Shown here: one piece after another, positions 8,893 through 35,765 of the stretch
Position numbering within the stretch: the first letter of the stretch is position 1
Layout of the letters: the number at the start of each line of letters is the position of its first letter
Notes under the pieces: model-generated
Told to the model about the DNA's origin: nothing
Database searches by the model: none
The model's input: the letters and a program-made list of their open reading frames with translations, nothing else
Position numbers and translations under genes: made by a program
Assembly: GCA_016871495.1 (NCBI GenBank)
Contig: VHDF01000043.1
Span: 1-37,627, forward strand
Direction of reading: 5' to 3'
DNA from: Verrucomicrobiota bacterium
Lineage (GTDB): Bacteria; Verrucomicrobiota; Verrucomicrobiia; Limisphaerales; VHDF01
DNA length: 37,627 nucleotides

Positions 8893-11412
8893 TCAATCGA
8901 GAAACATCATTTCGTTTGAAATGAGCAAGGTCTGCGCGAGTTGTTGAAAAGGGGAAAGGTGTTCCTCCTCCCGGTCGAGGGTTTTGGCGGTTTCAAGGAA
9001 GCGGAGAGCGAGGTTCAGTTCGGAGGGCGCAGGGGAACGGAGCAGTACGGTTCGATAGAGCCGGGTGACCCGGTCGCGCTCGCGTGTCGAATTCCATCCG
9101 ATGCGTTGTTCGAGGCTGAAGGCTTGTTCGGCGACAAATTTGGAATTGAGGGCGAAGAGGGCTTGTTGGGGTACGATCGTTTGGGGGCGCATGGCGGACG
9201 ACTGGTCGGGGCTCGCGAAGTCAAAAGCGCGGAACAGCGCGGGCACATCTTGACGATCGACGAGGCCGTAGAGGGTGCGCCTCCGGTTCAGGGCATCTTG
9301 GGCGACGTCCGTCGATCGCCCGCCCATGCCCGGATCAAGCCGACCCGAGGCGGCGAGCAGCGAATCACGCATGGACTCGAAGTCGAGCCGCCGTTTGTGG
9401 GCGCGCCAGAAGTAAAGGTTGTCCGGGTCGATCGAGCGGGCGGAGGGCCGGTCGTCGCTGGATTGGCGGTAGGTTTCCGACAGCACAATGGTTCGGACGA
9501 GATTCTTGAGTGAGCCGTGCTGGAGCAGTCGGTGAGCGAGATCGTCGAGGAGTTCCGGATGTTTGGGAGGTGGGGTGCGGACGCCGAAATCGCTTGGAGT
9601 GGGGACCAGAGGCGAGCCCAGAAGGTGCTGCCAGACTCGGTTGGCGAACACGCGGTAGGCGAGAGGGAAGTCGTGGGACAAGATCGATTGGGCAAGGTCG
9701 AGTCTTCCACTGCCGCGGGTGAATGGACTCGCGTCGTTTCCGCCGAGCCACGAGAGATGGCGGCGCGGGACGCTTTCGCCGGGGATGGCGGGGTTTCCGC
9801 GCAGGAAGACTCGTGTGGCCGGGATTTCGGGGACATCCGCCAGGATCATGGCCCGCGCTGGGGGGCGGTTAGTGGCATGGGCCGCGAATTTGTCCAAGCC
9901 GGTGACGAGTCCCCCATATTTATCACGCGGGACGCGGGACATGTGGAGGTAGGTGTTGCCCTTGGGGAACCAGACGGGACTTTCCTGCGAGGTGAGGATG
10001 GAAGCGAGTTCACGGGCCGCGGCTTGATCCTGGGCGGAAGCGTCGGCGAGGGTGCCGGACGCTTGGGAGTCTTTGAAGGCTTGCCCGATGGCTTCTCCGT
10101 AGAGGCGAGCGAGGGCGAGGCGAGTGGAAGGTTTGGAGCTGATGAGGGCGGCCCGGATTCGATTGTTCCATGAGGAGGATTCCGGGTGTTTGAGCCGTGA
10201 TTCCAGTTCAGAGGCGAGCTTTTCCTCGGGAACCTTCATCAACGCGTGCCAGGCGCCGAAGACGGAGTTGCTGGGGTTGGATCGCTGGGAGACGAAGCGC
10301 CTCCACCGGGAGAGGATGCCGGGACGCAGGTCTTCGGGCGAAAGCGAAAGGAAAAAGACCGCGTTTTCGGTGAGGCCGGAATGTTGGGTGGCGACTTGGG
10401 CCAGATAATCCGCCGTGCGGCGGCGAGCGGTCTCGGTGATCTCGGCGTATTGCTGGTCGATGTGGGTTTGCAGTTCAAGCCGTTTGGCAGCGAGCGCCTT
10501 TTCGAATTGGGGGCCATCAGGGAGGGTTTCGGGTGATTCCAGCAAGGGCGGGTCGAGCGGGGGTTCGCTGGCGGAGAAAATGCCGTAGAGCGCGTAGTAA
10601 TCGCGCGCCGTAATGGGATCGTATTTGTGATCGTGGCACCGGGCACAGGACACGGTCAGACCGAGGAACCCCCGGGTGACCGTGTCGATCTGGTCGTCGT
10701 AAATATCGTGCGGATTATTGTCGAAGAGACGGCCGAGCGTGAGGAATCCCATGGCGGCGAGGCGCCAGGAATGTCGGGGAGGGGCGTGTTGATCGGCGGC
10801 CAACTGGTCGGTGACGAAATCGGCGAAGGGGAGATCTTCGTTGATGGCCCGAATCACGTAATCTCGATACGTATAGGCGTAGGGGCGCAAACGGTCCTTG
10901 CCGTAGAGGAGCACCAGGTCCTTCGTTTCAGCATACCGCGCCACGTCGAGCCAGTGCCGAGCCCATCGTTCCCCGAATCGTGGGGAAGCGAGCAGTCGAT
11001 TGACTTGGCGTTCGTAGGCGGCGGGACGGCCATCGGCCATGAAACTTTCGATTTCCTCGAAGGTCGGAGGGAGTCCGGTGAGGTCGTAGGAGAGCCGGCG
11101 CAGCAGCGTGCGCCGGTCGGCGGGGGGTGAAGGCGAAAGGCCTTGGCGGGCCAGGCCGGTCCGGATCCAGGCATCCACCGTGTTGCCCGTCTCGGATCCA
11201 GCGACTCCAGCGGTGCGGGGTGGGTTCGTGGGGCTGAGCGGCTGGATGGCCCAATGGCGGCTGGAGTTGGAGGTTGGCATCGCAGGGGCTCCTCGGCTGG
11301 CGACCATGGCTGCCAGGGGGCACAAGATCGCGAGAAGGTTCAGAAGAACACGAGGGACCCTTCGAAGAACAACGGCGGGCTGGGCGCTGAAAAATGGAGA
11401 CCGGGAACGCAT
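8893..11412 (-). CDS. DUF1549/DUF1553 domain-containing protein (operon copy)
   Basis: An 839-residue exported protein. Residues about 15-42 form a hydrophobic signal segment. DUF1549 follows (about 75-285), with LSYDLTGLPPTFEEIESF, GERWARHWLDVARYA and the heme-type motif C256-A-R-C259-H260 in VSCARCHDHKYDP. DUF1553 fills the C-terminal half, with FANRVWQHLLG, TPSDFG, HPELLD and PQQALFALNS. The separate N-terminal cytochrome domain (PSCyt1) often seen in this family is absent. Two starts are possible: the ATG at 11412 used here, or a TTG at 11424 whose codon overlaps the prepilin stop. Either way the genes are translationally close. The DUF1501 gene follows after 7 bp. Confidence 0.88.
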   Translation of the reverse strand: MRSRSPFFSAQPAVVLRRVPRVLLNLLAILCPLAAMVASRGAPAMPTSNSSRHWAIQPLSPTNPPRTAGVAGSETGNTVDAWIRTGLARQGLSPSPPADRRTLLRRLSYDLTGLPPTFEEIESFMADGRPAAYERQVNRLLASPRFGERWARHWLDVARYAETKDLVLLYGKDRLRPYAYTYRDYVIRAINEDLPFADFVTDQLAADQHAPPRHSWRLAAMGFLTLGRLFDNNPHDIYDDQIDTVTRGFLGLTVSCARCHDHKYDPITARDYYALYGIFSASEPPLDPPLLESPETLPDGPQFEKALAAKRLELQTHIDQQYAEITETARRRTADYLAQVATQHSGLTENAVFFLSLSPEDLRPGILSRWRRFVSQRSNPSNSVFGAWHALMKVPEEKLASELESRLKHPESSSWNNRIRAALISSKPSTRLALARLYGEAIGQAFKDSQASGTLADASAQDQAAARELASILTSQESPVWFPKGNTYLHMSRVPRDKYGGLVTGLDKFAAHATNRPPARAMILADVPEIPATRVFLRGNPAIPGESVPRRHLSWLGGNDASPFTRGSGRLDLAQSILSHDFPLAYRVFANRVWQHLLGSPLVPTPSDFGVRTPPPKHPELLDDLAHRLLQHGSLKNLVRTIVLSETYRQSSDDRPSARSIDPDNLYFWRAHKRRLDFESMRDSLLAASGRLDPGMGGRSTDVAQDALNRRRTLYGLVDRQDVPALFRAFDFASPDQSSAMRPQTIVPQQALFALNSKFVAEQAFSLEQRIGWNSTRERDRVTRLYRTVLLRSPAPSELNLALRFLETAKTLDREEEHLSPFQQLAQTLLISNEMMFLD

Positions 11413-17197: not shown

Positions 17198-17366
17198 CAA
17201 AGGGGCATGGCATGTTCAACGGGCAAGGGTGCTGCCAGGGCGAAGGCATTCACCCGGGGCGGGCCATGGAGTGGGAGGAGATCGCCGCGGCCGATTGGCC
17301 CAAGCGGAAGCGCCGTGAACGGCGCGCCCCGAGAACGGCTTCGGGATGCACTAAACGAGGAACCGT

Positions 17367-17494
17367 GTATCCCGTTGTTGTTGGTAGGGCGGGCCTGTCC
17401 CAGCCCGCCGCCCACGGGATGCAAAACATCATGCTCCGGCGGCGCGCCGGGACGGACGCGCCCTACCTGCAACACCGGCAACATCGGGATGCAC
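17367..17494 (+). repeat. 128-bp dispersed MITE/REP-like element, copy 2
   Basis: Same orientation as copy 1 and the same length, with only scattered substitutions such as CCCGTTGTTG for CCCGATGTTG at the left end. It is bracketed by the imperfect direct repeat AACGAGGAA (17354-17362) and AATGAGGAA (17497-17505), consistent with a target duplication. It lies about 130 bp upstream of the sugar kinase gene and could affect its transcription. The rest of the gap from 17094 to 17625 holds the second palindromic repeat and nothing else I recognise. Confidence 0.85.
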
Positions 17495-17625
17495 CGAATG
17501 AGGAATCCGCGATGAAATCCGGCTTGAATTTGCCCGTTAACCTTGCAGTTTTCCCCGTTCGTGCGGTTTCGTGCCGGATTTAGCTGCGGCCGATTCGTGT
17601 AATCCTAACTCCAAGATCATTCAAC

Positions 17626-28521: not shown

Positions 28522-29517
28522 CTACCAGCAATTCTTCCGCACTTCTTCGCGCAGCATTTCGCTCAAGGGAGCGATGGCGGAATGCCAGTCCCCGAACGCT
28601 TTTTGGCGGAAGAGTTTCATGGTGGGATACCAAGGGGTGGTGTCGCCGTTCAACATCCACCGCCAACAGGGGCTGTAGGAAAGCAAAGCCCAGGTGGGAC
28701 GTCCCAGTGCTCCGGCCAGGTGCAGCGCCGATGTGCAAACGCTGATGATGAGATCCATCTGGCACATGACGGCGGCGGTGTCGCGAAAATCCTTGAGCTT
28801 GCCGCCCACGTCGAAGATGCGGGCGGTCACCGGGAGATCTTTCATTTCCACGCGTTTGGGTCCGACTTGCAGGCTGTACCAAACGACGCTCGGCGTTTCC
28901 AAGAGGGACGTGAGTTGGGTGAGATGGAGCGAGCGGAGGTGATCCTTGGGATATTTGGTCCCACCCGCCCATACGAGCCCCACCTTCATTTGGCCGCGCG
29001 GCGCGGCCGGGATGTTGACGAGGCCGGGCCCAGGGAGACGGAGATAGGGGACGGTGTTGGGGACATTGTCGGGCGTGCTTTCGAAGATCGCCGGAAGATC
29101 CAGGAGCGGCACGTGAGCATCGAAGGGCGGGATGGTTTCCTGTTCCTTGAGGAGGTAGTCCACGCCTGGGCACGATTCAAACAAGGACTGGAGTTCGCGG
29201 GGGGCGGCGAACAGGACCCGCTGGCAGCGCGACTTCGCGAGGGGAAGATAACGAGCAAAGTGGAGGCTGTCGCCCAGGCCCTGTTCGCACCAGACCAGCA
29301 GGGTTCCCCCGGGGAGCATCTCTCCTTTCCACCAGCTTTGGTTGAAGGAAGGTTTGGCCGTTCCGAAGCCATCCCACTTCCACCGCCATCGGTATTCCTG
29401 CCAGCCTTCCGTCCATCGCCCTGATGCGAGCAGTGCGAGAGAGCGGTTGTAGCGGACGCCGGCGTCGTTGAGCCGGGTGCGCAGAGCGTGATGATAACAG
29501 GACATCGCCTCCTCCAC
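28522..29517 (-). CDS. TPR/glycosyltransferase protein, C-terminal part
   Basis: This 331-residue frame is the C-terminal part of a protein interrupted by an in-frame TAG at 29527-29529. It opens in the middle of a TPR unit (VEEAMSCYHHALRTRLNDAG), then has YNRSLALLASGRWTEGWQEY and a GT-B domain like those of TPR-linked, family 9-like glycosyltransferases: WCEQGLGDSLHFARYLPL, MKVGLVWAGGTKYPKDHLRS and DLIISVCTSALHLAGALG followed by PTWALL. Such enzymes are proposed to glycosylate proteins or surface polymers. A GTG at 29517 could serve as a start, but it would begin mid-repeat and has no convincing ribosome site, so independent translation is unlikely. See the companion entry at 29527-30513. 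Confidence 0.7.
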   Translation of the reverse strand: MEEAMSCYHHALRTRLNDAGVRYNRSLALLASGRWTEGWQEYRWRWKWDGFGTAKPSFNQSWWKGEMLPGGTLLVWCEQGLGDSLHFARYLPLAKSRCQRVLFAAPRELQSLFESCPGVDYLLKEQETIPPFDAHVPLLDLPAIFESTPDNVPNTVPYLRLPGPGLVNIPAAPRGQMKVGLVWAGGTKYPKDHLRSLHLTQLTSLLETPSVVWYSLQVGPKRVEMKDLPVTARIFDVGGKLKDFRDTAAVMCQMDLIISVCTSALHLAGALGRPTWALLSYSPCWRWMLNGDTTPWYPTMKLFRQKAFGDWHSAIAPLSEMLREEVRKNCW

Positions 29518-29526
29518 GCGTCCGGT

Positions 29527-30513
29527 CTATTGCAAGAGGTTCCCGAGGTTGTTGGCCGGGTCCAGGAAGTCGGGTTTCGCCTGGATGGCCTGGCGATAAA
29601 GCGCCTCGGCTTCAGCGAGGCGGTTCTTGCGTTCCAGCAACAGCGCCAAGTTGTTGGCGGATTCGGGATGGCCGTTTTCGGCGACGGCGAGAGCGTAGTG
29701 TTGTTCCGCTTGATCGATGCGCTGGGCTTGTTGATGGATCAAGCCGATTTGAAAATGCACCTCGGCTTTCTTGGGGTGGAACGAGAGCGCCTGGAGATAT
29801 TGGGTGAGGGCCTTGTCGTGGTCCCCCATTTCCCGCAAAGTCGAGGCCAGATTGAGGGCCGCGTCGGCGTGCGTAGGATTGAAAATCAAGGCTTGTCGGA
29901 ATGCGGCGACCGCGTCTTTCGATCTCCCGATTCCCTTCAAAACCAGACCGAGATTATTGGCGGGGTCGGGGTCCGGGGCGATGGCGAGGGCATCGCGGTA
30001 GGCGGTCATCGCTTCGTCGAGCCTGCCTCGCTGGTGAAGGGCGACGCCGAGATTGAAGTGCGCGCCTGGAAAACGCGGGTCGAGATGAGTGACATGACGA
30101 AAAGCGGCGATGGCTTCGTTCCAACGCTTCAGCGCGGCGAGCACGGTTCCGCGGTTGAAATGGAAGGTCGCGAGGGTGGGGAGCAAGTTCGTGGCGCGAT
30201 CGAGCCAATCCAATGCGTCCGCATCAAGTCCGCGCTGATGGAGAAGCACCCCTATGAGGTGGATCAGTTCCGCGTCGTTGGGGGCTTTGGCCAGGAGGGC
30301 GTCATAGATTTCCTCCGCAGCCTGCCAGCGTCCCGACCGCTGATGGACCAGCGCGGCCTGGAGGTGACGGTGGAACGATTCGCTCGGCGTAACGGTCTGG
30401 CCCCCGATGATGTTCTGCGTCAGCAGGGGCGTCGAGTCTCTTCGTCCGAACGCGACGGACACGGATTGAATCTCCTGCCGCCGCTCAGAATTCACGCCAC
30501 GACTTCTACCCAT
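29527..30513 (-). CDS. TPR-repeat protein, N-terminal part, ends at in-frame amber codon
   Basis: About 328 residues made mostly of consecutive tetratricopeptide repeats (about eight), with consensus pieces such as AHFNLGVALHQRGRLDEAM, ANNLGLVLKGIGRSKDAV and ANNLALLLERKNRLAEAEAL. It ends abruptly after ANNLGNLLQ at a TAG; the same frame continues with TGRVEEAM, exactly the expected next TPR helix, into the glycosyltransferase part downstream. One base change (for example GAG or CAG to TAG) explains the break. The intact protein would have about 663 residues. TPRs mediate protein contacts. The ATG at 30513 was chosen; a GTG at 30525 is also possible. Confidence 0.7.
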   Translation of the reverse strand: MGRSRGVNSERRQEIQSVSVAFGRRDSTPLLTQNIIGGQTVTPSESFHRHLQAALVHQRSGRWQAAEEIYDALLAKAPNDAELIHLIGVLLHQRGLDADALDWLDRATNLLPTLATFHFNRGTVLAALKRWNEAIAAFRHVTHLDPRFPGAHFNLGVALHQRGRLDEAMTAYRDALAIAPDPDPANNLGLVLKGIGRSKDAVAAFRQALIFNPTHADAALNLASTLREMGDHDKALTQYLQALSFHPKKAEVHFQIGLIHQQAQRIDQAEQHYALAVAENGHPESANNLALLLERKNRLAEAEALYRQAIQAKPDFLDPANNLGNLLQ

Positions 30514-30629
30514 GGACGACAACACAAGGCTCGATCTGAACAGTCGCTAGCCCATGCCAGACCTAACATCCAAGACATCATCCGCTGTTACTCGCGCTAA
30601 ACCTCAACGCCAAAATCCAAGGCTGCGGT

Positions 30630-30660
30630 TTGAGTGTGAGTCAATGTGACTCACTATAAC
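30630..30660 (+). promoter_or_regulatory. Promoter with palindromic operator filling the spacer
   Basis: TTGAGT (30630-30635) and TATAAC (30655-30660) are -35 and -10-like boxes 19 bp apart. The 19-bp spacer is exactly GTGAGTCA-ATG-TGACTCAC, a perfect palindrome with 8-bp arms. Further TGAGT and ACTCA half-sites lie on each side (30631-30635 and 30659-30663). A dimeric regulator bound here would control the promoter. It points rightwards, away from the TPR gene (start 30513), whose own promoter may also lie in this gap. Confidence 0.5.
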
Positions 30661-30666
30661 TCAGGA

Positions 30667-30847
30667 TTGGAGAATCCCCGGGATCTGATAAAGTGCGTGT
30701 GATTGGCCCACCTCGAAGGACTGGGAACAAGAAACAGATTTCGTGCGCTTCATGCGCCCGCCAAGGGGCGCCGGTCTTCACGGCTGGCACCTAGCGTGGG
30801 GAACCGACGACGCCTCCGGAATGAACTTCCGGAGGCGGACGTTTTTA
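30667..30847 (+). ncRNA. Candidate orphan small RNA, about 180 nt
   Basis: The interval runs from the predicted start, seven bases after the -10 box at 30655, to the terminator at 30811-30846. No convincing protein is encoded. It contains several short hairpins: GGATT/AATCC at the 5' end, GCGC/GCGC, CGCC/GGCG, and a longer pairing of CCCAC (near 30707) with GTGGG (near 30797). Both flanking genes are on the other strand, so the signals do not belong to them. The size is like that of 6S RNA, but I cannot show the 6S bubble structure, and the sequence does not carry SRP RNA or tmRNA signatures. A short leader or regulator not recognised here remains possible. Confidence 0.4.
30811..30846 (+). 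terminator. Rho-independent terminator, plus strand
   Basis: CGCCTCCGGAA-TGAAC-TTCCGGAGGCG is a perfect 11-bp stem with a 5-base loop, followed by GACG and TTTTT (30842-30846). It is the best intrinsic terminator in the window. The T-run is on the plus side, whereas both neighbouring genes are on the minus strand, so it must end a plus-strand transcript from the gap. Confidence 0.75.
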
Positions 30848-30885
30848 GAGGCCCGTTGTTGCCGTTTCCAAGTTCAAGCCTGAAC

Positions 30886-33800
30886 CTAATCGACGAAAAG
30901 AAACTCGTTCGACGAAAAGATGACCTGCGCCAGTTGCTCGGCAGGGAAAAATGGACTGGGTAGGGCCTCCGGGGGACCGGAAAAGTCCTGCTTGGAATCC
31001 CAGGAGCGAGGTTGTGATTCCCCCTGGGGGCCGATCTCAACCAACACCGGTGACCACAGATAATCGTCGTGGCTCAGTCCAGGACCACGATCCACCGCAA
31101 AGTCGATTGTATCTCCCGCAGCGACCTCGACAGAGGCAAGGGCTATTTCTTGCTCGCGTTGATGGACGGACCATTGACCGAGCACTTGCTTTGAGTTGTG
31201 CACGATCCAGGCTCGAACTCCGTCACCTTCTTTGGCTTTATGAACAAGCTTGCCCCGCACTTCGACCTTCATGGCTTGAGGCGAGATCCAGCGGCGGATG
31301 GAGGAGTGATTGAGGTCGTTTCCCGGATGTCCTCCTGTGGCCGTCAATCGAACCCACCCCAGTTTGTCGTCGGGCCATTTCGAACCGCCCTGCCAGGAGC
31401 CATCCGTGAAATGAGGGAGGATTTGGAAGGGTTTAGCCTGGCCATTCGTCACGACGGGCGAACCGAAGCCGTACTTCCACGCCGGCGGTGGCGGAGGCTT
31501 CCGCTCGAGCCTCGGTGATCGTTGCGAGGTCGACAGGAATTCACGGGCGGCTTGGAGTTCCTGGGACGAGGGGGATCGCTGGTAGGCGCGGCGAAAGAAC
31601 TCCGCCAAGTCGCCTTGCGCGAGGACGGCCCGGGCCAGCGTGCGCGCCCGTTCCGCCGCGAAGGGGCTGTTTATGAAGAAAAGCGCTTGCTGCGGGACCG
31701 TGGTGTCCGGTCGAGCCGGGGTGTGAAGATCGGGATTGGCGAAATCGAAGTTGCGCAGGGAGCCCGGGAGGAACTGCCGGTCGATGGGAAGGTAAATGGA
31801 GCGCGGGCGGGGGCCGCCTTCCTTTGGAGAGGCGGCGAATCCGCCTCGTTGCTGTTCGAGTTCGCCACTGACGAACAGCATCGAATCGTGAAGCGATTCC
31901 CAATCCAGCCGGCGAGGCGCCATCCGCCAGAGGAAGCGGTTTTCCGGATCGCGCGCCTGGGCTTCGGGGCGGTCCACGCTGGACTGGCGGTAAGTGTTCG
32001 AGAGCACGATGAGTTGATGCAGTTTCTTCATCGACCCGCCTTGGTTGAGGAACCACGTGGACAGCCAGTCCAGAAGCTCGGGGTGGCTGGGCGGCAAGCT
32101 GCGCCATCCAAAATCGCTCGGGGTGGCCACCAGTCCTCGTCCAAAATGATGCGTCCAGACCCGGTTCACAAACACGCGCGCGGTGAGCGGATTGGCGCGG
32201 TCCGCGATGCGAGCCGCGAGTTCTGCGCGGCCGCTGCCGGAAGTGAATCGAGTCTGCCGCGGATCCAAGGCCGATAAAAATCGCGGTGGAACTTCCTCGC
32301 CTGCCAGGGCGGGGTTGCCACGTCGAAAAACGCGCCCCGGTTTGGGCTCGAGTTTGTCTTTCAGCACGACGGTGTGGGGGAGGGCATTCGAGGGCGAGAT
32401 TTTGATGAGCCAGCGATCGATCTCGGCTTGAAGCTTGGACAATTCAACCCGGGTTGGCTCGTCGAAATACCATTCGATTTCCACCACCGCGCCCGGGGGA
32501 ACCGCCAGGGGCGATTCGGGACCGTGGAAAACCTGGCGGATGCTTTCGAGCGCCGCATCCGCCATGCGAGGCGCGGCATTGGACGAGGCGGAGTGGTCGC
32601 GCCAAACACGGTCCACCTTTGCGAAGACTTTCGCGTAGACTTGGGCCAGCTCGGAAATCGACCGAGGGGGCTCCTTCGCCAAAGCTTCAGCGAGGGCAGG
32701 ATTTGCCGAGGATTGCTGGGTCAGTCGACTCAGGGCCTGGGGGAATTCATGAGTTCGTTCGGCCCGGGCAAGATCTGCGAAGGCCTTCCACGGCGTGAAC
32801 ACGGGATGGCCGGCTGCTCCCGCGCGTTGGACGAAGTCAGCCCAGCGTCTGACAAAAATGGGGTTGAGGTCATTGGTGCCGCGCAATTCATAAAAATCCT
32901 CGGTGGGATAGGAGGCGGCCGCTGGAATGGCTTCAAGATAACGCCCGATTTGCGAGCGCAAACGGTCGGCCAGCAGGTCGCGCTTGGCTTGCAGCACCGC
33001 GGCGAGCTTGTCCTGCCGCGCGCGCAATTCCTGGAGCGCCTCTTTTTCGATCCCGTGCTCTTCAAACGGACGCAGGGGGGTGAGTTGTTCGTAGGAGGAG
33101 GCGAAAATGCCGTAAAGGGCGTAATAATCCTGCGTGGAAACAGGATCATATTTGTGGTCGTGGCAGCGGGCGCAACTGACGGTGAGTCCCAGCAGGCCGC
33201 GCGTGACCACGTCGATGCGATCGTCGATGATGTCGTGCATCACCCCCAAAAAACGCTTGCCCAGAGTGAGGAAACCGAGCGCGGCCAGGTCGGCGCTCGA
33301 GGTGGCGCGCGTGTCGGCGGCGAGTTGAAGTTCGAGAAACCTGCTAAAAGGAAGATCGTCATTGTGAGCTCGGACAACCCAATCCCGATAGGCATGGGAA
33401 TGGACGAACCGCGTTTCTTCGCGATCCCCATACACGTAGCCTTTTGTGTCGGCGTAGCGCGCCACGTCGAGCCAATGACGGCCCCAACGCTCCCCATAAC
33501 GCGGGGAGGCCAGCAGACGGTCCACCACCTTCTCAACGGCGGAGCCTGATCGGTCATGGACGAAGGCTTCGACTTCCTCGAAGGTGGGGGGAAGGCCGTG
33601 CAGATCGAAGCTTAGCCGCCGGATCAGCGTCCGGCGGTCAGCCTCCAACGACGGTTCCAAGCCCTCGCTCTCCAATCGGGCAAGAATGAAACGATCGACG
33701 GGCGTGGCAATCCATCGTTCGTTGCGGACTCGCGGCGGTGGGGGATTTCGGATGGGAGCCAGAGACCAAAGCGCGTTCGTTGAGGGGGAAGCGGGTTGGT

Positions 33801-33972
33801 GGGTTGAAGTGCCCGTGCGGCCATCCCGCGCTCCGAGTTCCATTCCTGGATCGGCGAAAAGTGTCGAGAAAAGCAGACCGGGCAGGAATCCCGCCAGGCA
33901 CCCCCACACCACGTGTGGGAACCACCGGAGAAAAATTCTCCAGGTTCCGCGTCTCCAGGGCGAGTTTCGCAT
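30886..33972 (-). CDS. DUF1549/DUF1553 domain protein with C-terminal beta-sandwich insert
   Basis: A 1028-residue exported protein, paralogous to the one at 8893. The signal segment at about 10-40 follows the ATG at 33972. DUF1549 (about 85-290) has LSFDLHGLPPTFEEVEAF, GERWGRHWLDVARYA and C267-A-R-C270-H271 in VSCARCHDHKYDP. DUF1553 follows with FVNRVWTHHFGRGL, TPSDFG, HPELLDWL and PQQALFFINS. Before the last DUF1553 helix, after a proline-rich stretch, there is an inserted domain of about 150 residues (WKYGFGSPVV ... LWSPVLVEIG) that looks like a carbohydrate-binding-type beta-sandwich; the family tail QLAQVIFSSNEFLFVD then resumes. It has no DUF1501 partner next to it. The frame is open upstream to 34260, without similarity. 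Confidence 0.87.
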   Translation of the reverse strand: MRNSPWRRGTWRIFLRWFPHVVWGCLAGFLPGLLFSTLFADPGMELGARDGRTGTSTHQPASPSTNALWSLAPIRNPPPPRVRNERWIATPVDRFILARLESEGLEPSLEADRRTLIRRLSFDLHGLPPTFEEVEAFVHDRSGSAVEKVVDRLLASPRYGERWGRHWLDVARYADTKGYVYGDREETRFVHSHAYRDWVVRAHNDDLPFSRFLELQLAADTRATSSADLAALGFLTLGKRFLGVMHDIIDDRIDVVTRGLLGLTVSCARCHDHKYDPVSTQDYYALYGIFASSYEQLTPLRPFEEHGIEKEALQELRARQDKLAAVLQAKRDLLADRLRSQIGRYLEAIPAAASYPTEDFYELRGTNDLNPIFVRRWADFVQRAGAAGHPVFTPWKAFADLARAERTHEFPQALSRLTQQSSANPALAEALAKEPPRSISELAQVYAKVFAKVDRVWRDHSASSNAAPRMADAALESIRQVFHGPESPLAVPPGAVVEIEWYFDEPTRVELSKLQAEIDRWLIKISPSNALPHTVVLKDKLEPKPGRVFRRGNPALAGEEVPPRFLSALDPRQTRFTSGSGRAELAARIADRANPLTARVFVNRVWTHHFGRGLVATPSDFGWRSLPPSHPELLDWLSTWFLNQGGSMKKLHQLIVLSNTYRQSSVDRPEAQARDPENRFLWRMAPRRLDWESLHDSMLFVSGELEQQRGGFAASPKEGGPRPRSIYLPIDRQFLPGSLRNFDFANPDLHTPARPDTTVPQQALFFINSPFAAERARTLARAVLAQGDLAEFFRRAYQRSPSSQELQAAREFLSTSQRSPRLERKPPPPPAWKYGFGSPVVTNGQAKPFQILPHFTDGSWQGGSKWPDDKLGWVRLTATGGHPGNDLNHSSIRRWISPQAMKVEVRGKLVHKAKEGDGVRAWIVHNSKQVLGQWSVHQREQEIALASVEVAAGDTIDFAVDRGPGLSHDDYLWSPVLVEIGPQGESQPRSWDSKQDFSGPPEALPSPFFPAEQLAQVIFSSNEFLFVD

Positions 33973-34112
33973 CGCCCCGGCGGTCTGGCAGGTTCGTGCC
34001 GAGGGCGGCCTCGGACAGTCGTCGCCATGCACCATGGCGCGACCGGGGAACCTCAATTCCGTCGCCACTGCAGGAATCGCTTGGGGCGTCCGCGAGTGGC
34101 CGGTCAGAGCAC

Positions 34113-34196
34113 GGCGTTCACGCCGCTTCATTCTCCGCGCGCCCTCTGGCGAAGGCTCGTGATCGGGTGAAGCAGGACTGAAGCGGCGTAAACGCC
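34113..34196. repeat. Paired palindromic repeat, inverted arms
   Basis: GGCGTTCACGCCGCTTCA (34113-34130) and TGAAGCGGCGTAAACGCC (34179-34196) are inverse of each other with one mismatch in 18, 48 bp apart. Each arm is also partly self-complementary. The first arm equals 17169-17186. This REP-like pair lies in the 326-bp gap between the divergent DUF1553 and SDR genes, the rest of which (33973-34298) contains no recognised feature. Confidence 0.6.
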
Positions 34197-34298
34197 CCGG
34201 CCCGGCGCAGAGGCGCGCATCCCCGGCATCTTGAGGATGCACTGGAAAAGTTCGATCCATCGATTGGGAGTGGCGCGATTCGATGGCCGGAGTATAGC

Positions 34299-35571: not shown

Positions 35572-35581
35572 TACTCCATCG

Positions 35582-35709
35582 GTGCATCCCGATGTTGCCG
35601 GTGATGCAGGTAGGGCGCGTCCGTCCCGGCGCGCCGCCGGAGCATGATGTTTTGCATCCAGTGGGCGGCGGGCTGGGACAGGCCCGCCCTACCAACAACA
35701 TCGGGATAC
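35582..35709 (-). repeat. 128-bp dispersed MITE/REP-like element, copy 3 (inverted)
   Basis: The same element as at 33-160, on the opposite strand. It is bracketed by a perfect 14-bp direct repeat, CGGGTACTCCATCG at 35568-35581 and 35711-35724, the clearest target duplication of the three copies. It lies between the divergent acyl carrier protein and AAA-FHA genes. Confidence 0.88.
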
Positions 35710-35765
35710 ACGGGTACTCCATCGTCGTCCTTGTTGTTCCTTTGAAAGTCACGTAAAGTCTGATC

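Follow-up and report, generated by a model that had tools for sequence, protein, structure and literature searches.

Promoters of the MerR family have an over-long spacer of 19-20 bp that holds a dyad operator, and their regulators activate by untwisting the promoter. The long spacer between the -35 and -10 elements of MerR-type promoters is described in one source (PMC3431237), and for HspR, a MerR-family repressor, the operator called the HAIR element is CTTGAGT-N7-ACTCAAG (PMC6102357). The locus analyzed here combines a promoter-like site whose 19-bp spacer is filled by a palindrome with an intrinsic terminator downstream. It lies in contig C43, the whole of which (37,627 bases) is referred to below as the window; the genome is a 5.06-Mb assembly in 201 contigs, 97% complete, and scans of it covered stretches totalling 2.34 Mb, window included.

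Sequence reading and scans for promoter-like sites place a -35-like hexamer TTGAGT (4/6) at 30630-30635 on the plus strand, and a -10-like hexamer TATAAC (5/6) is read at 30655-30660 (+). The original prediction held that the spacer between them is exactly a perfect palindrome of 19 bp, and base-by-base comparison bears this out, coordinates included: 30636-30654 reads GTGAGTCAATGTGACTCAC, that is, GTGAGTCA-ATG-TGACTCAC, a candidate operator without strand that contains TGAGT-N7-ACTCA, a HAIR-like core. The -35 is weak, the spacing is not the optimal one, and the site at 30630-30660 fails a standard promoter scan on account of its 19-bp spacer and 4/6 -35. Taken alone, a palindrome of such size is ordinary (the window holds 13 with arms of at least 8 and loops of 0-8, against 9.9 +/- 2.8 in dinucleotide shuffles); what is remarkable is its position inside a promoter-like spacer. 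Among the 494 strict promoter-like sites in the 2.34 Mb (-35 at least 4/6, -10 at least 5/6, spacer 15-20), 30636-30654, with arms of 8, is the sole spacer palindrome with arms of at least 7. Three shuffled copies yielded 1557 promoter-like sites, four of them with arms of 7 and none with arms of at least 8. A window has about 8 promoter-like sites, and by chance one of them would hold a palindrome with arms of 7 in about 2% of windows and one with arms of 8 in less than about 0.5%; neither figure is corrected for the post hoc choice of a feature picked after reading.

The hairpin further downstream had been called the best intrinsic terminator of the window, with an 11-bp stem plus TTTTT, and it is indeed the sole window hairpin that joins at least 9 perfect pairs to a T run. 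Hairpin and T-run scans locate this terminator at 30811-30846, on the plus strand only: the hairpin CGCCTCCGGAATGAACTTCCGGAGGCG (30811-30837, 5-nt loop) is followed by GACG, four bases that separate the stem from the T run at 30842-30846, and its minus side has no T run. A G+C-rich hairpin followed by a T run, as in Rho-independent terminators, is thereby present with the T run offset by 4 nt. The predicted fold closes this distance by pairing 30807-30809 with 30840-30842, so that the T run adjoins the stem; the canonical terminators of the genome differ from this copy, whose T run begins 4 nt past the stem.

Terminators of the hairpin plus T-run type form a real class in this genome. Perfect stems of at least 8 number 945 in the 2.34 Mb, of which 35 have T4 and 13 have A4, counted as a run of four within ten bases past the stem; for stems of at least 9 in a 0.83-Mb subset, T and A runs number 21 and 6 in the real DNA against 3 and 3 in shuffled DNA. 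With genes called by a simple codon-usage script, not a standard gene finder, 19 of the 35 T4 hairpins follow a predicted gene on their own strand by no more than 300 nt, mostly by 15-44 nt, and five, including the terminator at 30811-30846, lie between two opposite-strand genes. The latter is convincing as a signal and has no same-strand gene ahead of it.

Promoter-like site and terminator sit in a 360-bp gap (30526-30885) with minus-strand genes on both sides. That both neighbors are on the other strand had been stated and is correct: the PSCyt2/PSD1 (DUF1549/DUF1553) gene occupies 30886-34260 and runs from 34260 to 30886, and the TPR gene occupies 28522-30525 and runs from 30525 to 28522. 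No minus-strand terminator-like site was found in the gap. The TPR gene has an in-frame stop at 29527-29529, either the mark of a pseudogene or a sequencing error, which divides it into two same-frame ORFs. Just 3' of the PSD1 stop is the end of an interspersed repeat, TTGAACTTGGAAACGGCAA (30859-30877, minus strand). The motif TTGAACYTGGAAACGGCAA at this position has 26 copies in the genome at up to 2 mismatches, against 0 for the control; several copies continue as a longer element whose inverted ends are similar, and several start at or near the stop codon of a gene. The window also contains interspersed repeats of about 130-140 bp at 29-164, 17357-17497 and 35579-35719 (-), 96-97% identical among the window copies; the family gives 88 BLAST matches in the 2.34 Mb, or roughly 190 genome-wide.

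Judged from the sequence, promoter and terminator together plausibly make a short plus-strand transcript, predicted to span 30667-30846 (about 180 nt), with start and end placed from the promoter and terminator positions. The reading we favor, tentatively and at somewhat less than an even chance, is a lineage-specific, regulated transcript of cis-antisense type that is probably non-coding. The features pointing to it are the hexamers 19 bp apart, the palindrome that fills their spacer, the plus-only terminator, and the gap between minus-strand genes. A dimeric regulator would bind the palindrome that separates -35 from -10. Once bound, it would either block polymerase or untwist the promoter, with its over-long 19-bp spacer, and so activate it in the MerR manner. 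Repression by occlusion and activation by untwisting appear equally compatible with the site, the latter being offered because a dyad-filled 19-bp spacer is the MerR-type promoter layout. The RNA would be released near 30846 and be fully complementary to any read-through from PSD1 to TPR, and might then uncouple the two genes as a cis-antisense RNA or a collision transcript. Given where the unit lies, between PSD1 and TPR, a cis-antisense role is the natural inference. If real, the unit would add one more lineage-specific small RNA to an order whose small RNAs, to our knowledge, have hardly been mapped; the genes of the window (PSCyt2/PSD1, TPR) and their best relatives suggest that this order is Verrucomicrobia-like.

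Does anything else speak for a dedicated RNA? None of the tests of family, conservation, regulon, structure or coding adds support. An Rfam scan of the gap RNA gave no match at the gathering threshold or at E<=10. Folding of the predicted RNA gave z = -2.67 with the terminator and z = -0.31 without it; there is therefore no sign of selected structure in the RNA body. The original prediction had called for a search of related genomes: in 146 and in 320 genomes of the same order, all from other families, no DNA similar to the gap was found above chance. Since the nearest genomes compared belong to other families, absence from them says little at the distance over which a small RNA would be expected to persist. 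Synteny is of no help in reaching intergenic DNA, the best full-length PSD1 relatives being about 47% identical as protein and thus too distant.

The search of the gap DNA gave three short matches in the 146 genomes and two in the 320, mostly to a G+C-rich hairpin stretch at 30746-30777. Among them, and judged to be chance, L173 covers about 25 nt within a protein-coding gene, L010 is the terminator hairpin that follows a gene, L008 is intergenic, and L009 matches elsewhere in the query. Pattern searches in the own genome give no support to the reading of 30746-30777 as a repeat; one of these searches is weak, as its pattern allowed a gap one base shorter than that of the copy in the window. 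One other genome (G307) has about 10 hairpins similar to 30746-30777.

What the original prediction described, a regulated RNA of about 180 nt, is thus supported in one half: its own promoter and terminator fit the anatomy of such a unit and the way this genome uses terminators. The other half, that the RNA is regulated and dedicated, has not gained a conserved sequence, an Rfam match or an operator regulon.

A first alternative, which we consider somewhat unlikely, is that the terminator is a guard that halts stray plus-strand antisense transcription before it enters the PSD1 gene; a dedicated RNA would then not exist, and chance would account for the promoter-like site. In its favor are the plus orientation of the terminator and its place 48 bp from the end of the PSD1 gene, the unremarkable RNA body and the lack of conservation. 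It also has parallels, since the genome has further orphan terminators between opposite-strand genes, but it leaves the upstream coincidence of promoter and palindrome (1 of 494 sites) unexplained. In two of these orphan terminators, L139 (minus strand, position 8893 from the reverse end) and L150 (plus strand, 13529), the stem passes straight into a run of T9 and T7, respectively. Neither gave an Rfam match at the gathering threshold, and on the quality of the signal both are better candidates for the end of a small RNA than 30811-30846.

It is also unlikely that palindrome and hexamers are chance, with the hairpin serving mainly to end the minus-strand PSD1 mRNA or to protect it at its 3' end. 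The main support for this comes from distance, the hairpin being 48 nt past the PSD1 stop and so near the 15-44 nt usual for terminators in this genome. Palindromes of such size are common, as the count of 13 against 9.9 expected indicates, and the feature was picked post hoc. The T run, however, is on the plus side and none follows the hairpin on the minus strand, which makes it a poor terminator for the PSD1 gene.

Could the unit encode a tiny protein? A 33-codon GTG ORF at 30693-30794 (+) fits between promoter and terminator, and its start and stop suit both signals. This ORF nevertheless lacks a coding signal (codon score -4.2), a Pfam match, a clear ribosome-binding site by eye and any relatives found, so that it is not supported as a gene and we hold this alternative to be very unlikely.

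Regulation through the palindrome bears on a further alternative and on a narrower form of the favored reading. The full palindrome at 30636-30654 has no second copy in the own genome at 0-2 mismatches, and the core TGAGT-N7-ACTCA has a single occurrence in the 2.34 Mb, the one in the window; no regulon is visible as a result. The core nevertheless shares 5+5 bases with the HAIR element CTTGAGT-N7-ACTCAAG (PMC6102357), which raises the question of a heat-shock unit under HspR. The window reads GTGAGT-N7-ACTCAC, so that the core alone agrees with the full HAIR operator and the outer arm bases differ. The own genome shows no enrichment of HAIR (57 sites at up to 3 mismatches, none with 0-1, against 100 for the reversed control), and the dnaK-like gene of the window has no HAIR-type site upstream. 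Only two MerR_1 matches were found in the own genome, on contigs C60 and C29; the open frames that hold them are 277 and 349 aa long, neither of HspR size, and the second reads by eye as a B12-type regulator. No HspR gene was found in this genome, which at 97% completeness could have missed one, and a MerR_1 search of the window's contig found no match and hence no cognate MerR-family gene beside the promoter.

Across the same-order genomes the longer motif TGAGTCA-N3-TGACTCA has 8 occurrences, its reversed control 1. It precedes dnaK by about 120 bp in one case (L206) and an hsp20 gene by about 230 bp in another (L204); two more (L207 and L208) are a single orthologous place within one genus, three stand in no clear context, and the window supplies the last. 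There are hints here of a chaperone-linked operator in some members of the order, and with no HspR evident in the genomes examined the motif may mark a heat-shock operator not yet assigned. The hint fails to carry over to the own genome because HAIR is not enriched there, the dnaK-like gene has no site, and no MerR_1 match is HspR-sized. We accordingly consider an HspR-controlled heat-shock unit most improbable at this locus. The narrower form of the favored reading, a lineage-specific regulated cis-antisense RNA switched by a putative dimeric regulator that reads TGAGTCA-N3-TGACTCA, the motif found upstream of dnaK and hsp20 in two members of the order, is a long shot.

Comparison with 6S RNA, also proposed originally, turned up nothing 6S-like at 30630-30847, and a 6S RNA at 30667-30846 is next to impossible: length and intergenic position are all that favor it, against the lack of a match even at E<=10, a predicted fold without the single long bulged hairpin, and the presence on contig C40 of a 6S-like match over the full length. 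That match (L131; G000 contig C40, 7317-7497, minus strand) scores 36.9 bits (E 1.3e-5), under the curated RF00013 cut-off of 46.4 bits, and probably represents the genome's own 6S RNA, so that none is needed at 30667-30846.

Returning to the favored reading of a short regulated transcript, its resemblance to described systems is uneven. Length is what the unit has in common with 6S RNA (RF00013), from which it differs in having no covariance-model match, the 6S-like RNA being at another locus. With the HAIR element of HspR the window shares the TGAGT-N7-ACTCA core and its spacing; it differs in the outer bases, in that no HspR-like gene was found in the own genome, and in that no chaperone gene is attached. 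The likeness to MerR-family promoters lies in a 19-bp spacer wholly occupied by a dyad, whereas the weak -35 and the absence of an adjacent cognate regulator gene are unlike them; we know of no MerR operator that the dyad sequence resembles. Among bacterial intergenic and cis-antisense small RNAs with intrinsic terminators, the candidate unit stands apart in lacking conservation; it is like them in its own promoter-like signal, its predicted length of about 180 nt, its hairpin plus T run and its freedom from coding signal, which together describe a modest, unproven candidate small RNA of an ordinary kind.
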